From assembly GCA_025210515.1 (NCBI GenBank), contig JAOARM010000003.1, positions 1 to 64,000 of the forward strand: 64,000 nucleotides of DNA. The letters are read 5' to 3'. The stretch comes from Vallitalea sp. (GTDB taxonomy: Bacteria; Bacillota; Clostridia; Lachnospirales; Vallitaleaceae). The translations under genes and the position numbers were made by a program. Positions within the stretch are counted from its first letter, which is position 1, and every line of letters begins with the position of its first letter. Under the pieces are notes generated by a model. That model did no database searches and was not told the DNA's origin. It worked only from the letters and a program-made list of their open reading frames with translations. Below are positions 9,784 through 63,982 of the stretch, piece after piece.

Positions 9784-12477
9784 ATGAAGAAAAAACTATC
9801 GCCTATGATGCAACAATATGTAGAGTTAAAACAACAATATGAAGATTGTATATTATTTTTCAGACTAGGTGATTTCTATGAAATGTTTTTTGATGATGCT
9901 ATTACTGCATCAAAAGAATTAGGAATTACATTAACAGGTAGAGATTGTGGACAAACTGAACGTGCACCTATGTGTGGCGTTCCTCACCATTCATCTGAGA
10001 ATTATATTAATAAGCTTATTAAAAAAGGTTACAAAGTTGCCATCTGTGAACAAGTTGAAGATGCAAAAGTAGCAAAAGGAATAGTAAAACGTGATGTTGT
10101 AAGAATAGCTACTCCTGGAACTAATCTTAATATGCAATCTCTTGATGAAACGAAAAATAATTATTTAATGAGTATATTTAATAGTAAAGAGAACTATGGA
10201 TTAGCATTTGTTGATATTACTACTGGAGATTTTTTAGTAACAGAAGTAAGTGACAAAAGAAAACTGGTTGATGAGATAGGTAAGTTTATACCTACAGAAA
10301 TTATTTGTAATGATAGTGTAATTACAGATACTGAACTTACTAATGAGCTACAAAATAGATTTCATAGTTATATTAGTGAGGAAGAAGAATGGTATTTTTC
10401 CTATGATAGAAGTATTAAGAGAATACAAGAGCAATTTGGAGTAAGCACTATTGATGGGTTAGGGATAAAAGATTATAGCGTTGGTATATGTGCTGTTGGT
10501 TCTTTACTTGAGTATCTTCTAAAAACTCAAAAAAGTAATATAGCACATATAACTAAAGTATTACCATATGGAACTGATTCATATATGATGATTGATTTAT
10601 CATCAAGAAGAAATCTAGAGCTAGTAGAGACGTTAAGAGAAAAAGAGAGAAAAGGTTCATTGCTATGGGTGCTTGACAAAACAAAAACTGCTATGGGTTC
10701 AAGATTACTTAGAAAATGGATTGAACAACCTCTATTATCAAAATCACATATAGAAGGAAGACTTAATGCCATAGAAGAACTTAATAATAATCCAATAGTT
10801 AGAGAGGAATTAAAAGAGTTTTTAACACCTGTATATGATTTGGAAAGACTAATGAGTAAAATAAGTCTGAAAACAGCTAACTGTCGTGATCTTATTGCAT
10901 TTAAAACATCGCTTGAAATGTTACCACATATTAAAGCGCTTCTAAATGAATGTAAGACAGATTATATTAAAGATATTAATAATACTTTTGATGAGTTAAA
11001 AGATATATTTAGTTTAATAGAAAAGGGTATAATAGAAGACCCGCCTATTTCGATAAAAGATGGTAATATTATTAATACTGGTTATCATCCACAAGTAGAT
11101 AAACTACGTGAGGCTTGTACAAAAGGAAAACAGTGGATAGCTGAATTAGAGGCAAAAGAGAAAGAAAAAACAGGTATTAAAACTCTCAAAATTAAGTTTA
11201 ATAAAGTTTTTGGTTATTATATTGATGTAACTAAATCTAATCTAAGTTTAGTTCCAGAAAGATATATTAGAAAACAAACGTTAGCTAATTCAGAAAGGTA
11301 CATAACACCAGAATTAAAAGAAATGGAGAATACAATTCTAGGTGCAGAAGAAAAAGTAGTTGCTCTTGAATATGAGTTATTTGTAGAGTTAAGAAATAAA
11401 ATAGGTATGGAAGTAGATAGAATTAAAGATTCTGCTAATAAGATAGCTATTCTTGATGTAATTGCATCTTTATCAGAGGTTGCTACTAAGCATAATTATG
11501 TACGACCTAAACTTAATGAAGAAGGAATAATTGATATACAAGATGGTAGACATCCAGTTGTTGAAAAAATGATGAATAATGAAATGTTTATTCCTAATGA
11601 AACGTATCTTAATAAAGATGATAGCAGATTTTCTATTATAACAGGTCCAAATATGGCAGGTAAGTCTACATATATGAGACAGGTTGCGCTTATTGTATTA
11701 ATGGCTCAGATTGGAAGTTATGTTCCAGCTAGTAAGGCAGATATTTCAATTGTAGATAGAATATTTACAAGAGTAGGGGCTTCTGATGATTTGGCATCTG
11801 GGCAAAGTACGTTTATGGTGGAGATGACAGAGGTTGCTAATATTCTTCGTAATGCAACAAGTAATAGTCTTCTAATATTAGATGAGATTGGTAGAGGAAC
11901 AAGTACTTTTGATGGGCTTAGTATTGCTTGGTCGGTAGTTGAGTATATTGTAAATGAGAATAAAATAGGTGCTAAGACATTATTTGCTACTCATTATCAT
12001 GAACTTACTGAATTAGAGGGGAAAGTAAAAGGTGTACAGAATTACTGTATTTCTGTGAAAGAAAAAGGTGACGATATTATTTTCCTTAGAAAAATTATTA
12101 AAGGTAGTGCGGATAATAGTTATGGAATTCAAGTGGCTAAGCTTGCAGGAGTTCCTCTTGAAGTTATAAGTAGAGCTAAGGTTTTGTTAACTCAGTTAAG
12201 TGAGGCTGATATTACTAAAAATACGGAGGCTATTATAAGTTGTGATAATGATGAGGTAGCTGTTGCTATAGAGGATATAGATACAAGTGTTATAGAAAAT
12301 AAGAGTGTACAGACGTCTTTAGTTAAAGAAGATGCACCTATACAATTAGGATTATTTGATATTATGGATGGTAAGCAAGATATAATTGATGAACTTAAAA
12401 GTTTGAATATAGTGGAAATGACACCGATGGATGCGCTTAATAAGTTGTATGATTTGCATAAGAAGAGTATGGGGTAG
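9784..12477 (+). CDS. mutS: DNA mismatch repair protein MutS
   Basis: An 897-residue mismatch-recognition ATPase. The N-terminal mismatch-binding domain has the Phe-x-Glu wedge motif in FRLGDFYEMFFDDA. The lever and clamp domains follow, and the ABC-type ATPase has Walker A TGPNMAGKS at 620-628, then LLILDEIGRGTSTFDGLS and FATHYHELTEL. The C-terminal tail is variable. It lies 12 bp after miaB and is probably co-transcribed. A structured repeat array starts directly after its stop codon and separates it from mutL, which is usually immediately adjacent. Confidence 0.97.
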   Translation: MKKKLSPMMQQYVELKQQYEDCILFFRLGDFYEMFFDDAITASKELGITLTGRDCGQTERAPMCGVPHHSSENYINKLIKKGYKVAICEQVEDAKVAKGIVKRDVVRIATPGTNLNMQSLDETKNNYLMSIFNSKENYGLAFVDITTGDFLVTEVSDKRKLVDEIGKFIPTEIICNDSVITDTELTNELQNRFHSYISEEEEWYFSYDRSIKRIQEQFGVSTIDGLGIKDYSVGICAVGSLLEYLLKTQKSNIAHITKVLPYGTDSYMMIDLSSRRNLELVETLREKERKGSLLWVLDKTKTAMGSRLLRKWIEQPLLSKSHIEGRLNAIEELNNNPIVREELKEFLTPVYDLERLMSKISLKTANCRDLIAFKTSLEMLPHIKALLNECKTDYIKDINNTFDELKDIFSLIEKGIIEDPPISIKDGNIINTGYHPQVDKLREACTKGKQWIAELEAKEKEKTGIKTLKIKFNKVFGYYIDVTKSNLSLVPERYIRKQTLANSERYITPELKEMENTILGAEEKVVALEYELFVELRNKIGMEVDRIKDSANKIAILDVIASLSEVATKHNYVRPKLNEEGIIDIQDGRHPVVEKMMNNEMFIPNETYLNKDDSRFSIITGPNMAGKSTYMRQVALIVLMAQIGSYVPASKADISIVDRIFTRVGASDDLASGQSTFMVEMTEVANILRNATSNSLLILDEIGRGTSTFDGLSIAWSVVEYIVNENKIGAKTLFATHYHELTELEGKVKGVQNYCISVKEKGDDIIFLRKIIKGSADNSYGIQVAKLAGVPLEVISRAKVLLTQLSEADITKNTEAIISCDNDEVAVAIEDIDTSVIENKSVQTSLVKEDAPIQLGLFDIMDGKQDIIDELKSLNIVEMTPMDALNKLYDLHKKSMG

Positions 12478-12479
12478 AG

Positions 12480-12617
12480 GTGGAGTAAACTTCCGCTCCG
12501 AATGTATAGGGTAATATTCCGTCAGCTAGTTAAACGTCCGTGTTTAAAATAGCTGACCTCGCCGTCCTGGCTCGTGCTTCATATTACCCTATACATTCTC
12601 CGCTAGGCTAGTGGAGA
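12480..12617 (+). repeat. Structured intergenic repeat, class I, copy A1
   Basis: This copy begins 3 bp after the mutS stop codon. A perfect 18-bp closing stem (12500-12517 with 12581-12598; left arm GAATGTATAGGGTAATAT) encloses two hairpins. Hairpin 1 (12521-12557) pairs GTCAGCTA with TAGCTGAC and TTAAAC with GTTTAA around GTCCGT. Hairpin 2 (12561-12571) is GCC-GTCCT-GGC. A short hairpin GGAG-TAAA-CTTC flanks the 5' side and CTCCGCTA-GGC-TAGTGGAG flanks the 3' side. It is clearly GC-richer than the genes around it. No reading frame or known RNA family is recognised. Confidence 0.88.
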
Positions 12618-12649
12618 TTTATATAATGCTTTGCGTGAATTTTGTGATT

Positions 12650-12790
12650 GTGAAGTGAACTTCTGCTCGGAACGTATAAGGTAATATTCCGTCAGCTAGT
12701 TGAACGTCCGTGTTTAAAATAGCTGACCTCGCCGTCCGTGGCTCGTGCTCCATATTACCCTATACATTCTCCGCTAGGCTGGTGAAGAAT
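12650..12790 (+). repeat. Structured intergenic repeat, class I, copy A2
   Basis: Second tandem copy, about 170 bp after A1. The copies are joined by a shared spacer of about 32 bp containing TATATAATGCTTTGCG. Differences from A1 are few. In hairpin 1 TTGAAC faces GTTTAA, giving a G-T wobble instead of an A-T pair. The outer left arm has one A opposite C. The second hairpin loop gains one base (GCC-GTCCGT-GGC). The 5' side hairpin is a perfect GAAG-TGAA-CTTC. Confidence 0.88.
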
Positions 12791-12822
12791 TATATAATGC
12801 TTTGCGTATGAATTTTGTGAAT

Positions 12823-12958
12823 GTGAAGTGAACTTCGCTCCGAACGTATAGGGTAATATTCCGTTAGCTAGTTAAACGTCCGTGTTTAAAATAGCTGACC
12901 TCGCCGTCCTGGCTCGTGCTCCATATTACCCTATACATTCTCCGCTGGGCTAGTGGAT
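12823..12958 (+). repeat. Structured intergenic repeat, class I, copy A3
   Basis: Third tandem copy, 173 bp after A2, ending about 80 bp before mutL. Hairpin 1 has GTTAGCTA facing TAGCTGAC, again a G-T wobble in place of a pair. The core tips TTAAAC/GTTTAA and GCC-GTCCT-GGC are unchanged. The 3' hairpin keeps pairing through further wobble changes. The spacer seen after A1 and A2 is absent, so the array ends here. Confidence 0.88.
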
Positions 12959-13038
12959 GTATTAGTAATATTTGTGTAGAATATATGATTTTTCATAAAA
13001 TAAATAATTGGTGTAATATATTTGAAAGGATGTGTAAT

Positions 13039-15039
13039 ATGCCTGAGATAAAATTGCTTGATCAGAGTACAATTAATAAGATTGCAGCAGGAGAGGTAGT
13101 TGAAAGACCTGCTTCTGTTGTGAAGGAATTAGTAGAGAATTCTATTGATGCGTCAGCAAGTGCTATAACAGTAGAGATAAAAGAGGGAGGTATTTCTTTT
13201 ATTCGTATTACTGATAATGGAATAGGTATTTCAAAAGAGGATATTAATACGGCTTTTATACGTCATTCAACAAGTAAAATTAAGTCTATAGAAGATTTGT
13301 TTACAGTGTCTTCTCTTGGATTTAGAGGAGAAGCTCTTGCAAGTATTGCGGCGGTATCGCAAGTGGAGGTAATAACTAAGACTTATGATGATATAACAGG
13401 GATACGTTATGTTATAGAAGGTGGAAAAGAGATTAGTATAGAAGAGATAGGGTGTCCGGAAGGAACTACTATTATAATAAGGAATATATTTTATAATACA
13501 CCTGCTAGACGAAAGTTTTTGAAAAAACCTGCTACTGAAGGGTCTTATATAAGTGAGTTAATTAATAAGTTGGCTCTTGGTAATATGGGAATATCATTTA
13601 AGTTCATATATAATAATGCAATAAAACTACATACTTCTGGTAATAATGTTTTAAAAGACTGTGTATTTAATGTATATGGAAAAGATATTGTTAAAAACAT
13701 TGTTCCTATTAAGATTAATAATAGTGAGTTTACTATTGATGGTTATATAGGAAAACCACAAATATGTAGGGCGAATAGAAATTATGAGAATTATTATATT
13801 AATGGTAGGTATATTAAAAGTAAATTAATTATGAAAGCTATTGAAGACGGATATAAGACTAGATTAACAGTACACAAGTATCCTTTTGCAGTATTTAATA
13901 TAAATATTAATCAAGATTTAATAGATGTTAACGTACATCCTACTAAAATGGAAGTTAGGTTTAATAATGAAAAGTTAATATATGATTGTATAAGTGAAGG
14001 GATTAATGATGCATTAAATAAGATTGATTTAATACCAGAAGTAGGTTTTAATAAGACTAAGGCATCAGATAAAAGGAAAGATATAATAAGTAAGAGTATA
14101 CCAGAGCCTTTTGAGAAAAATAGAATTGAAGCTAACAAAGTTAGTAATGTAAGAGAAGTGGATAATAATTATAATGCGAAAGTAATATCACCAACATATG
14201 AAATTAATAAAACATTTAGAAGTAACAATAAGTTTAATTCATCTACTATTGATAATAATATAAGTAAAGGTTATATTGATGAAAATAATAGAGATGGTAT
14301 TAATAGTAATGAAGAAAAAAATATTATTGAGTCTAAAGAAGAAATTAAAAAGTCATTAGTTAATAAGCTCTCTGATACATTAGTGTCAGATAAGAAAATA
14401 CTAAAAGGTGAACAGATTGAGATACTAGATAATAAATTTATTGATAGAAAAACGGTTAAAAATCATAAAATAATTGGACAACTTTTTAATACTTATTGGA
14501 TTATTGAACTTGAAAATAAGTTTTATATGATTGACCAACATGCGGCTCATGAGAGAGTATTATATGAAAGAATTCTTAATAAACTTAATAATTCTGATAG
14601 TGAAGCTATGTCTCAAGGTCTACTACAACCTATTATTGTTCATGTATCTATTAAAGAGAAACAGCTTATAACAGAATATAAACAAGTTTTTAATGATATT
14701 GGGTTTGAAATAGAAGAGTTTGGTAAAGATGCATATGCTATTAGAAGTGTGCCATATATATTTGCAAAATCTATGAGTGCTGAACAATTTATTGAGATGC
14801 TTGATAAGTTAGATGATAAATACGATAATAAAAAATATGATATTATACTTAATGATATTGCCACTATGGCATGTAAGGCAGCTGTAAAAGCACATGATAA
14901 AATGTCTATAAAAGAATATGAAAAGTTATTAGATGAATTATTAGAACTTGAGAATCCATATACTTGTCCTCATGGGAGACCAACAATCATCTCAATGACA
15001 AGATATGAATTAGAAAAGAAATTTAAAAGAATACAGTAG
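13039..15039 (+). CDS. mutL: DNA mismatch repair protein MutL
   Basis: A 666-residue GHKL ATPase and matchmaker that couples MutS to strand incision. N-terminal motifs are IAAGEVVERPASVVKELVEN, ITDNGIGI and STSKI...TLGFRGEAL-type (here SSLGFRGEALASIAAVS). A long low-complexity linker rich in Asn, Lys and Ser spans about residues 335-470. The C-terminal domain carries the endonuclease motif DQHAAHERVLYE at about residue 499 plus ACKAAVKAHD and CPHGRPT, as in MutL proteins that nick DNA themselves. ATG 13039 follows GAAAGGATG and matches the conserved N-terminus. An in-frame extension upstream runs through repeat copy A3 and is not credible. Confidence 0.96.
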   Translation: MPEIKLLDQSTINKIAAGEVVERPASVVKELVENSIDASASAITVEIKEGGISFIRITDNGIGISKEDINTAFIRHSTSKIKSIEDLFTVSSLGFRGEALASIAAVSQVEVITKTYDDITGIRYVIEGGKEISIEEIGCPEGTTIIIRNIFYNTPARRKFLKKPATEGSYISELINKLALGNMGISFKFIYNNAIKLHTSGNNVLKDCVFNVYGKDIVKNIVPIKINNSEFTIDGYIGKPQICRANRNYENYYINGRYIKSKLIMKAIEDGYKTRLTVHKYPFAVFNININQDLIDVNVHPTKMEVRFNNEKLIYDCISEGINDALNKIDLIPEVGFNKTKASDKRKDIISKSIPEPFEKNRIEANKVSNVREVDNNYNAKVISPTYEINKTFRSNNKFNSSTIDNNISKGYIDENNRDGINSNEEKNIIESKEEIKKSLVNKLSDTLVSDKKILKGEQIEILDNKFIDRKTVKNHKIIGQLFNTYWIIELENKFYMIDQHAAHERVLYERILNKLNNSDSEAMSQGLLQPIIVHVSIKEKQLITEYKQVFNDIGFEIEEFGKDAYAIRSVPYIFAKSMSAEQFIEMLDKLDDKYDNKKYDIILNDIATMACKAAVKAHDKMSIKEYEKLLDELLELENPYTCPHGRPTIISMTRYELEKKFKRIQ

Positions 15040-17660: not shown

Positions 17661-17847
17661 AAAGGGCTATCTCATAATATATTTTTTTGAGGTTTTCAGC
17701 TTTTATAAGATAGACTAGATTTAGCTAATGATATCCTTAAACGTCATGTTTAAAGGATACCACTATGCCGTCATGGCTTATTTACAGCTAAAACTAGTCT
17801 ATCTTTCTATATATTGACATACAATAATTATGAGAAGTCCCCCTTTG
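17661..17847 (+). repeat. MITE-like element, class II, copy B
   Basis: A 187-bp non-coding element between ynbB and the MBL-fold gene. The ends are imperfect inverted repeats: GGCTATCTCATAAT at 17665-17678 against ATTATGAGAAGTCC at 17827-17840 (11 of 14 match), both bordered by AAAGGG or its complement. Inside, a 19-bp stem (17708-17726 with 17786-17804, one mismatch) encloses hairpin 1 (17730-17761, loop GTCAT between TAAAC and GTTTA) and hairpin 2 (GCC-GTCAT-GGC, 17767-17777). The tips match the class I repeat at 12.5 kb. No transposase gene is present and I see no clear target duplication. Confidence 0.75.
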
Positions 17848-20454: not shown

Positions 20455-20636
20455 GGGGGCTGTCGGATAATATATTTTTTTGATGGCTAAAAGTTTTGAA
20501 GATATACTAGTTTTAGCTATCATACCCTTAAACGTCCTGTTTAGTGGGTATGTGCTACGCCTTCAGTGGCTTGGCTTAATGCTATACTAGTATATCTTCC
20601 TCTATATTATTATGGAAAATGTATTATCCCACAGCT
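20455..20636 (+). repeat. MITE-like element, class II, copy C
   Basis: A 182-bp non-coding element. Its ends form a terminal inverted repeat: GCTGTCGGATAATATATTTT at 20459-20478 against the complement of 20616-20635 (18 of 20 match). A perfect 14-bp inner stem (GAAGATATACTAGT at 20498-20511 with 20586-20599) encloses hairpin 1 (20521-20552; CATACCC and TTAAAC arms around GTCCT) and hairpin 2 (GCC-TTCAGT-GGC at 20459+100 to 20470+100, that is 20559-20570). It has the same layout as copy B, with most stem bases changed in pairs. No reading frame of note. Confidence 0.78.
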
Positions 20637-41072: not shown

Positions 41073-41114
41073 AGCAAAACCCTTTTTGGAAAACTAAACA
41101 AAAAGGGTTTTGCT
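41073..41114. terminator. Bidirectional terminator between convergent genes
   Basis: A perfect 16-bp inverted repeat (AGCAAAACCCTTTTTG with its complement) with a 10-base loop lies 7 bp after the coiled-coil gene and 25 bp from the end of the convergent phosphoesterase gene. Confidence 0.75.
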
Positions 41115-61245: not shown

Positions 61246-61541
61246 TGGAAATACATTAAAAGCTATTTTATTACACTCAAAAAGTATTTATAATTATATA
61301 GTTGATATTACTGTGAACTTAAGCTATTATTTAATTTGTATTAAAATAAATAAGAGTTTATATACAGTAAAAAAACACCGCCCAAAAAAAATATTAAATA
61401 TTTTACAAAATTATATTGATTAATTTCAAAAAAAAATATATTATTATGTGTAAGAGGTTATGTAAATATACTTAAGAGAATTGTATACCAATATTCTCGC
61501 TTATGTACATATAGATTAGAAAGTTGTTAGGAGGAACTACT
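61246..61541 (+). promoter_or_regulatory. ftsZ leader with a probable promoter
   Basis: A 296-bp very AT-rich gap. TTGATT at 61416-61421 and TATTAT at 61439-61444 are 17 bp apart and could drive ftsZ. Nothing else is recognised. Confidence 0.45.
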
Positions 61542-62666
61542 TTGCTTGAAATAAAAATGAATGAAAAGGCAAGTGTGGCAAAGATTGTTGTCATAGGAGT
61601 AGGTGGAGGCGGTAATAACGCTGTTAATAGAATGATAGAAGACAATCTTAATGGGGTTGATTTTATTGCTGTTAATACAGATGTTCAAGCTCTTCAATGC
61701 TCTAAAGCTTCAGTCAAAATACAGATTGGAGAAAAACTTACTAGAGGATTAGGTGCAGGAGCTAACCCAGAAGTTGGATTAAAAGCTGCTGAAGAAAGTA
61801 AAGAGGAGTTAGCAGAAGCAATAAAAGGCGCAGATATGGTTTTTGTTACTGCTGGTATGGGTGGTGGAACAGGTACAGGAGCTGCACCAGTAATTACGAA
61901 TATTTCAAAGGAAATGGGTATTCTTACAGTTGGAGTTGTAACAAAACCTTTTGATTTTGAAGGTAGAGTAAGAATGAAAAATGCAGAATACGGTATAGAA
62001 AGTCTAAAGAAATCTGTTGATACCCTAATAGTTATTCCTAATCAAAAGCTTTTATCAATAATTGATAGAAGAACAACAGTAAAAGATGCATTTAAAAAAG
62101 CTGATGAAATATTACAGCAAGGTGTACAAGGTATTTCTGATCTTATCTATACTCCAGGTATTATTAACCTTGACTTTGCTGATGTAGAGACAGTTATGTC
62201 AAGTAAAGGTATTGCTCATATTGGTATTGGACGAGCTACAGGAGATAATAAATCAGAAGAAGCGGCTAGAATGGCTATTTCAAGTCCATTGCTTGAAACA
62301 ACTATTGATGGAGCTAAGCATATACTTATTAATATTAGTGGTGATTCTAATATGTCTATGTTTGAAGCTAATGACGCTATCCAGTTAATTCAAGAAGCAA
62401 CTGGTAACGATTCTAATATTATATATGGTCAAATTATTGATGATTCACTAGAAGACGAATTAGTTGTAACTGTTATTGCTACAGGCTTTGAATCACTTAT
62501 TGATACAAGCATTGCACCAAGTAACAATAATGAGGTTAAAGAAGCAAATGAATTAGCAAGTGCAACAAAAGAAGTGGTAGAAGAACAAAATATCAAAAAG
62601 GATATTCATATTGAAGAAAAACCAATTGATATTCCACCATTTTTACAACGTAAAAGAAAAAGATAA
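61542..62666 (+). CDS. ftsZ: Cell division protein FtsZ
   Basis: A 374-residue tubulin-like GTPase that forms the Z ring. [17 protein letters not shown] and the GTP signature GGGTGTG (residues 107-113) are present, as are [20 protein letters not shown] and the T7 loop [14 protein letters not shown]. The C-terminal peptide [11 protein letters not shown] is the conserved partner-binding tail. TTG 61542 is chosen since AGGAGG stands 7 bp before it; ATG 61557 lacks a ribosome binding site. No ftsA precedes it. Confidence 0.96.
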
Positions 62667-62711: not shown

Positions 62712-62760
62712 TTTGCAGAAATTTATATGAATATATCAAGCATCATTAAAGTATTAGGAG

Positions 62761-62880
62761 CCTAGCGTAGAATAATATAGGGTAATATGTAGCACGAGCC
62801 AGGACGGCGAGGTCAGCTGTTTTAATCAGGACGATTAACTAGCTGACGTAATATTACCCTATATTGTTCGTAGCGGAAGT
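62761..62880 (-). repeat. Structured intergenic repeat, class I, inverted copy D
   Basis: On the minus strand this copy follows the A1-A3 pattern. The outer arms are 62770-62788 and 62851-62869, with one C-A mismatch. Hairpin 1 pairs TTAATC with GATTAA around GTCCT, and hairpin 2 is GCC-GTCCT-GGC. Compared with A1, an A-T pair in hairpin 1 has become T-A. In the outer stem a G-C pair has become A-T, and both arms have gained one base. It sits between the ftsZ terminator and the spoIIGA promoter. Confidence 0.87.
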
Positions 62881-62968
62881 TTAAATATTTCTAGAATAGT
62901 TAACGATTTAACATACCAGATATATTGTAGAAAAAAATAGTAAAAAAATGGGAATTTGCCTATCGTTT

Positions 62969-63070: not shown

Positions 63071-63982
63071 GTGTACTTAGAAGTTTATATTGATATTGTC
63101 TTTATTATTAACTTATTAATGGATTATATTATATTATTTATAGTTAAAGTAATGACAAAGAAAAATACGAAAAAAATAAGATTGCTAATTGGTGCTCTAG
63201 TTGGAGCGTTAATGATGTGTATTATCGTCATTCTTCCGTATAGTAATTACTTGTTTAATGTTATAGTTGGGTATTTATTAACAAGTTTGTTAATAGTATA
63301 CATATCATTTAAACCAAGTAGGCTAAGTGAATTAATTAAGTTAACAGTTATAATGTATTTAAGTGCTATTATGCTTGGTGGGATAATGTTTGCCTTATAT
63401 TACTATTCATTTATTGGAGTAGAAATAAGTAAAGTAATTAATGGTACATATAATATGGATTTGAAAGTGGGCTTGTTTATTCTTTTTGGAATAATTGCTC
63501 TTATTATATTTAAAGTGATTGGAAAAATTATCACTAGCACAGCTGTAATTAATAAAAATCTATTTGGAATTGAAATTAATATTAATAACCATAAAATTAA
63601 TGTAAATGGATTATTAGATACAGGAAACAATCTATACGACCCAATAACTAATAATCCTGTTATAATTGCTGAAAGCGATTTATTAAAAAAATTCATGGAA
63701 GAAGATAATTTTAATAAGTTAAACAATATATCTAACAATTTGTATAACGTAACAGATTTTGTTGAGCTTGGACAACTAAGTAAACTAAAGCTAAGATTAA
63801 TTCCTTTTTCATCTTTGGGAAATGATAACGGCATGTTACTTGGCATAGTAGCTGATAATATATGCATTAATATTGGAGATGAAAAAAAAGATTTTAATGA
63901 TGTAGTTATTGCTGTCTATAATAAAAAACTATCTAATGATAACAGCTATCAAGTTCTAATACATCCAGAATTGGTGAGTTAA
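63071..63982 (+). CDS. spoIIGA: Sporulation sigma-E factor-processing peptidase
   Basis: A 303-residue membrane aspartic protease that cleaves pro-SigE in the mother cell. Five hydrophobic segments fill residues 1-155. The cytosolic protease domain has the catalytic motif VNGLLDTGNNLYDPITNNPV with Asp at 183, and then LRLIPFSSLGNDNGMLLGI. GTG 63071 follows a very strong GGAGGGGGG. After the stop codon, TAAGGAGATATT near the window end looks like the ribosome binding site of the next gene, expected to be sigE. Confidence 0.94.
   Translation: MYLEVYIDIVFIINLLMDYIILFIVKVMTKKNTKKIRLLIGALVGALMMCIIVILPYSNYLFNVIVGYLLTSLLIVYISFKPSRLSELIKLTVIMYLSAIMLGGIMFALYYYSFIGVEISKVINGTYNMDLKVGLFILFGIIALIIFKVIGKIITSTAVINKNLFGIEININNHKINVNGLLDTGNNLYDPITNNPVIIAESDLLKKFMEEDNFNKLNNISNNLYNVTDFVELGQLSKLKLRLIPFSSLGNDNGMLLGIVADNICINIGDEKKDFNDVVIAVYNKKLSNDNSYQVLIHPELVS

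Follow-up and report, generated by a model that had tools for sequence, protein, structure and literature searches.

The TwoAYGGAY motif (Rfam RF01731) was listed in 2010 by Weinberg et al. as probably an RNA and probably not cis-regulatory (PMC2864571), and a 2014 paper reported that its loops match the motif of CsrA sites and predicted CsrA-binding sRNAs in Clostridia (PMC4333381). Among the papers listed in literature searches on RF01731, TwoAYGGAY and CsrA sponges in Clostridia, no experimental test of this CsrA prediction came up. In Rfam, RF01731 shares its clan (CL00106) with CsrB of E. coli (RF00018). Csr RNAs such as CsrB are normally encoded at few loci per genome, contain many sites each and have their own promoters. 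A second point of reference is formed by the MITEs and the REP-BIME repeats, which are short, palindromic, intergenic and high in copy number, have no coding frame and show insertion polymorphism, and in all of these respects they resemble the element described here.

The element was encountered as an array between mutS and mutL in a 64,000-nucleotide stretch of the genome of Vallitalea sp., which was analysed as a whole and is referred to below as the window. The stop codon of mutS lies at 12477 and the true ATG of mutL at 13039, and the gap is occupied by three tandem units of about 171 bp. The tandem repeat finder TRF returned a single array at 12480-12955 (period 171, 2.8 copies, 92% matches), the score of which (818) is by far the highest of the seven TRF arrays in the window, in agreement with what had been described on the basis of sequence inspection alone (hereafter the sequence-only reading). 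Every unit has an 18-bp closing stem around two inner hairpins, and the folding noted in that same reading was borne out: copy 1 with its flanks folds at -58.4 kcal/mol on the plus strand versus -30.7 for shuffles (z -8.6) and at -53.0 on the minus strand (z -6.8), and the whole array has a z-score of -8.8 that was equalled by no shuffle. The TRF result and the fold scores on both strands together imply that repeat and structure are real. As the spacer region contains a 28-nt direct repeat (12636-12663/12809-12836, 96% identical) in addition to the 171-bp period, the array was formed by duplication of the element plus its spacer. The elements in the window are given below, with the likely RNA strand and, where applicable, the score obtained with R1, a covariance model built from 42 copies of the element.

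12483-12621, minus strand: copy 1, TwoAYGGAY-like element (R1, 161.9 bits)
12500-12517 and 12581-12598: arms of the closing stem (P1) of copy 1, 18 bp, 100% complementary
12565-12567 and 12537-12539, minus strand: GGA of the two loops of copy 1 (AGGAC and ACGGAC, respectively; from the fold)
12622-12652: spacer of the 171-bp unit, recurring at about 12793-12824 (from the TRF period of 171)
12653-12792, minus strand: copy 2 (R1, 145.8 bits)
12663-12776, minus strand: match of copy 2 to RF01731 (23.7 bits)
12735-12737 and 12707-12709, minus strand: GGA of the two loops of copy 2 (each ACGGAC)
12825-12963, minus strand: copy 3 (R1, 151.3 bits)
12907-12909 and 12879-12881, minus strand: GGA of the two loops of copy 3 (AGGAC and ACGGAC, respectively; from the fold)
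17692-17827, minus strand: divergent copy (R1, 38.2 bits; fold z -7.2)
20486-20620, minus strand: divergent copy (R1, 30.2 bits; from the fold, loops AGGAC and ACUGAA)
62747-62886, plus strand: fourth strong copy (R1, 152.6 bits; from the fold, both loops AGGAC)

The last three, like the copies elsewhere in the genome, had escaped the sequence-only reading. The fourth strong copy is intergenic, between an ftsZ-like ORF (61524-62666) and an ORF at 63071. The copy at 17692-17827 has a closing stem that is wholly different yet well paired, and both its loops read AUGAC, so that the GGA is lost; with the same change from AYGGAY in both hairpins, it possibly represents a separate subfamily. The window also contains a perfect 16-bp inverted repeat with a 10-nt loop at 41073-41114 (AGCAAAACCCTTTTTG / CAAAAAGGGTTTTGCT), which is probably a bidirectional terminator.

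At the gathering threshold, no Rfam family was found in the window, and to that extent the earlier remark that the element matches no known RNA family holds. A permissive search of the array nevertheless yielded exactly one family, TwoAYGGAY, on the minus strand (the 23.7-bit match in copy 2), and in a sister species one copy (G003:C1:2049148-2049272) scores 46.1 bits, i.e. above the gathering score of 43, so that a naming match does exist, albeit below threshold in this genome. Within the own genome the 16 best RF01731 matches all coincide with copies of the element; the copies of this genome score 23 to 36 bits (best 36.3) and thus stay below the gathering score, for which reason we class the array as a divergent variant of RF01731 and not as a curated member. 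The alignments span the full length of the model (1-168), both loops and the linker being shared, and, together with the covariation of P1, they reveal the one stem enclosing both hairpins that defines the family. The two defining AYGGAY terminal loops are present in the window copies as ACGGAC and AGGAC, the latter being one base short of the consensus. The element and the described motif, both found in Clostridia, thus share two A(Y)GGAY-loop hairpins in the same order, with the same linker and on the same strand, within a single long and weakly conserved enclosing stem; they differ in that the element measures about 115-138 nt against 168 model positions, that one of its loops often lacks the Y (AGGAC) and that it forms three tandem units at mutS-mutL. 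All in all, there is good support for the view that the array is made up of divergent elements of the TwoAYGGAY type, read on the minus strand, and we hold it with high confidence.

To trace the element, the own genome (G000) and five sister genomes of the genus Vallitalea (G001-G005) were compared. In the whole own genome a DNA search (BLAST) located the element at 43 places and R1 at 45 places with at least 90 bits. Strong R1 matches were obtained in all five sisters as well, namely about 60 in G003, 21 in G001, 11-12 in both G004 and G005, and a single one in G002. These strong matches were counted from the list, and the printed totals of 70 and 79 were set aside, because they include opposite-strand mirror matches of the same places (25-33 bits) and therefore do not equal copy numbers. 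A DNA search extended to 35 further genomes from the same family and order gave no match, and neither did searches of plasmid and phage collections. At mutS-mutL the gap measures 14-17 nt and is free of the element in four sister species (G002-G005), while in G001 a single copy is located there and in G000 three, so that the empty orthologous site in relatives by which MITEs are recognised was found here. Few insertion sites are common to G000 and the sister copies sampled, which make up a partial sister sample. The array appears to result from one insertion that was later tandemly duplicated, and it seems to have nothing in particular to do with mismatch repair, to which its position alone connects it. 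A second tandem pair in the own genome (L017:1494-1782, contig C38, period about 150 bp) implies that tandem duplication is not confined to mutS-mutL.

The structure is conserved across these copies. In an alignment of 98 copies from the genus, 95.8% of the cells in the 29 consensus pairs are standard pairs, and 24 of the 29 pairs were altered on both sides, versus 11.1 after shuffling and no more than 8 when the arms were slid (double-change cells: 257 versus 57). The earlier claim of a structure-conserving element is thereby upheld; a multitude of genomic copies with changes that break the pairing, which would have argued against it, was not found, as the many copies keep their pairing. The closing stems of the subfamilies are very different (TATAGGGTAATAT, TATAGGGGAATAT, TATATGTATATG, AAAGGGGTATG), each with a matching partner arm, and the two hairpin loops are near-constant across them. 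Several G003 copies (L100, L101, L102, L108, L109, L110 and L069:2326-2526) carry the same two-hairpin insert of about 65 nt (GGACATCGAGTCC ... CTGACAGTCCAGTAGGGCTGTCAG) within the first of the inner hairpins, and this module is common to different stem subfamilies.

As for the strand, the sequence-only reading had proposed selection at the RNA level on the plus strand, citing two G-T wobbles. Across the 98 copies these are outweighed: the stem mismatches on the plus strand comprise 14 G-T and 31 A-C cells, and since an A-C mismatch on the plus strand is a G-U pair on the minus strand (where the counts become 31 G-U and 14 A-C), the balance favours the minus strand, as it does by column (12 versus 4), with the qualification that the asymmetry is modest and was counted over cells that are not mutually independent. 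The core is more stable as minus-strand RNA in 89 of the 98 copies, by 2.8 kcal/mol on average, and at least two hairpins with a GGA loop form on that strand in 89/98 copies, all three array copies among them, with loops that are mostly AGGAC, ACGGAC or ATGGAC; in some well-folded copies the GGA has been lost from one loop or from both. The wobbles, the fold energy and the A(N)GGAY loops of both hairpins thus all point away from the plus strand, and the RNA strand of the array is likely the minus strand.

In order to relate the motif to its predicted ligand, we compared the distribution of csrA with that of RF01731. All six genomes of the genus encode csrA. Among 246 genomes of the order it occurs in 20 of the 20 RF01731-positive ones versus 153 overall, and among 391 genomes of the class in 27 of 32 versus 125 overall (Fisher p 2e-10); counted by genus within the class, the figures are 21/21 and 78/223. 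Three of the assemblies of the five carriers without csrA (G417, G457, G494, G511 and G553) are less than 90% complete, and for each of the five another sampled genome of the same genus has the gene. The association may partly stem from shared ancestry, which lies outside the statistical model, and is therefore to be taken as support and not as proof. We consider it plausible, and lean slightly towards the view, that the minus-strand transcript binds CsrA. Since the AYGGAY strand is antisense at mutS-mutL, such a reading requires an antisense transcript there; a scan of the minus strand of the array for promoters returned none beyond chance. The element resembles the sponge RNAs CsrB, CsrC and RsmX/Y/Z in the GGA that its hairpin loops would offer to CsrA and in the common Rfam clan, and differs from them in that its loci number in the tens and have only two sites apiece, without a recognised promoter.

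The reading that we find best, and favour by a modest degree of confidence, is that of a mobile or formerly mobile repeat that carries an RNA with paired predicted CsrA sites. Each unit is one of the many copies of a repeat that is scattered over intergenic sites and the minus strand of which would encode a TwoAYGGAY-type RNA, and the long closing stem would present two short hairpins with A(N)GGAY loops, the signature bound by dimeric CsrA. With two sites in each unit, and up to six in the array, the minus-strand transcript could then bind a single dimer of CsrA per unit, which would titrate CsrA or mark nearby transcripts, and the copies may have spread as a non-autonomous mobile element.

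The main rival is a non-autonomous palindromic mobile repeat (MITE- or REP-like) in which the structure matters as DNA only, the hairpins being required for mobilisation or else produced and repaired through template switching, and the GGA loops being incidental or recognised by a recombinase. It agrees with the high copy number, the intergenic sites, the empty mutS-mutL site and the scarcity of shared sites, and there are 257 cells with paired double changes against a mere 31 with wobbles, an imbalance that correction of a palindrome would yield. Further points in its favour come from other carriers. The TwoAYGGAY motif is high in copy number in three other Lachnospirales genomes (53, 49 and 40 matches); in G204 it sits in the middle of a unit of about 480 bp with imperfect terminal inverted repeats. 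Such repeats were also seen in G003 units, where a recent subfamily has longer conserved ends, and none were defined for G000 units. Long flanking inverted repeats with arms unlike those of other copies were observed in G241 (L240-L252) and G204 (L220-L239); the outer palindrome is private to each copy in both genomes (own-arm score 63-77 versus 16 when swapped), and in G000, G001 and G003, where per-copy outer palindromes were also sought, they are absent or weak. The outer stems of G241 show a wobble excess and those of G204 and G183 do not, which implies that pairing in the long outer stems of the latter two may be kept at the DNA level. Against a role as DNA only, conservation at the loops ranks among the highest of all unpaired positions, as would suit the site of one protein in both hairpins, the core energetically favours one strand, and the co-occurrence with csrA would require another reason. 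Moreover, Y1 (RAYT/IS200) transposases (PF01797) gave no match in G000 and G001, both many-copy genomes, and no target-site duplication was recognised. These two points and the conserved internal loop pair also set the element apart from MITEs and REP-BIME repeats, and mobilisation by RAYT/IS200 was rejected on the lack of a Y1 transposase in the own genome. On this evidence we regard a purely DNA-level repeat as a real but rather unlikely explanation.

An element in the plus-strand mutS-mutL message, for protection of the 3' end, attenuation or regulation of mutL, is improbable. It would fit the observation that copies often begin no more than 30 nt from a stop codon, the slightly better plus-strand fold of copy 1 with its flanks, and the orientation in the own genome, where 23 of 26 copies in tandem contexts have their plus strand co-directional with both neighbours. 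This orientation bias, however, reverses between sister species: the AYGGAY strand is antisense versus sense to both tandem neighbours in the ratio 23:3 in G000, 9:1 in G001 and 3:15 in G003. There is accordingly no conserved single mRNA context, which argues against cis-regulation of the neighbours, and stability of the core and wobbles favour the other strand and four sister species have no element at mutS-mutL at all. The least probable explanation, an element that terminates transcription or marks a boundary where genes end, finds some support in the copies near stop codons and in the one terminator-like site of the array (plus strand, 12597-12617; 0.4 expected) and is contradicted by 18-bp closing stems that lack a T run, by copies in both orientations and by long conserved unpaired stretches and two looped hairpins for which termination has no need.

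Two observations are new here, namely that several genomes contain TwoAYGGAY as a dispersed repeat of high copy number and that its carriers across Clostridia nearly always have csrA. The motif, an orphan since 2010, thereby gains members, a strand and a high-copy dispersed lifestyle, and the statistical link with csrA provides independent support for the decade-old prediction of CsrA binding. More speculatively, and in our estimation doubtful as yet, TwoAYGGAY could, instead of an ordinary sRNA gene, be a family of palindromic mobile repeats by which hairpins that bind CsrA in pairs are spread over clostridial genomes, tens of such small decoys constituting a distributed and evolvable sponge of which tandem arrays like that at mutS-mutL might be local amplifications. 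If true, this would mean that a post-transcriptional regulator is titrated by a repeat family, and a whole class of clostridial palindromic repeats would have found its explanation.
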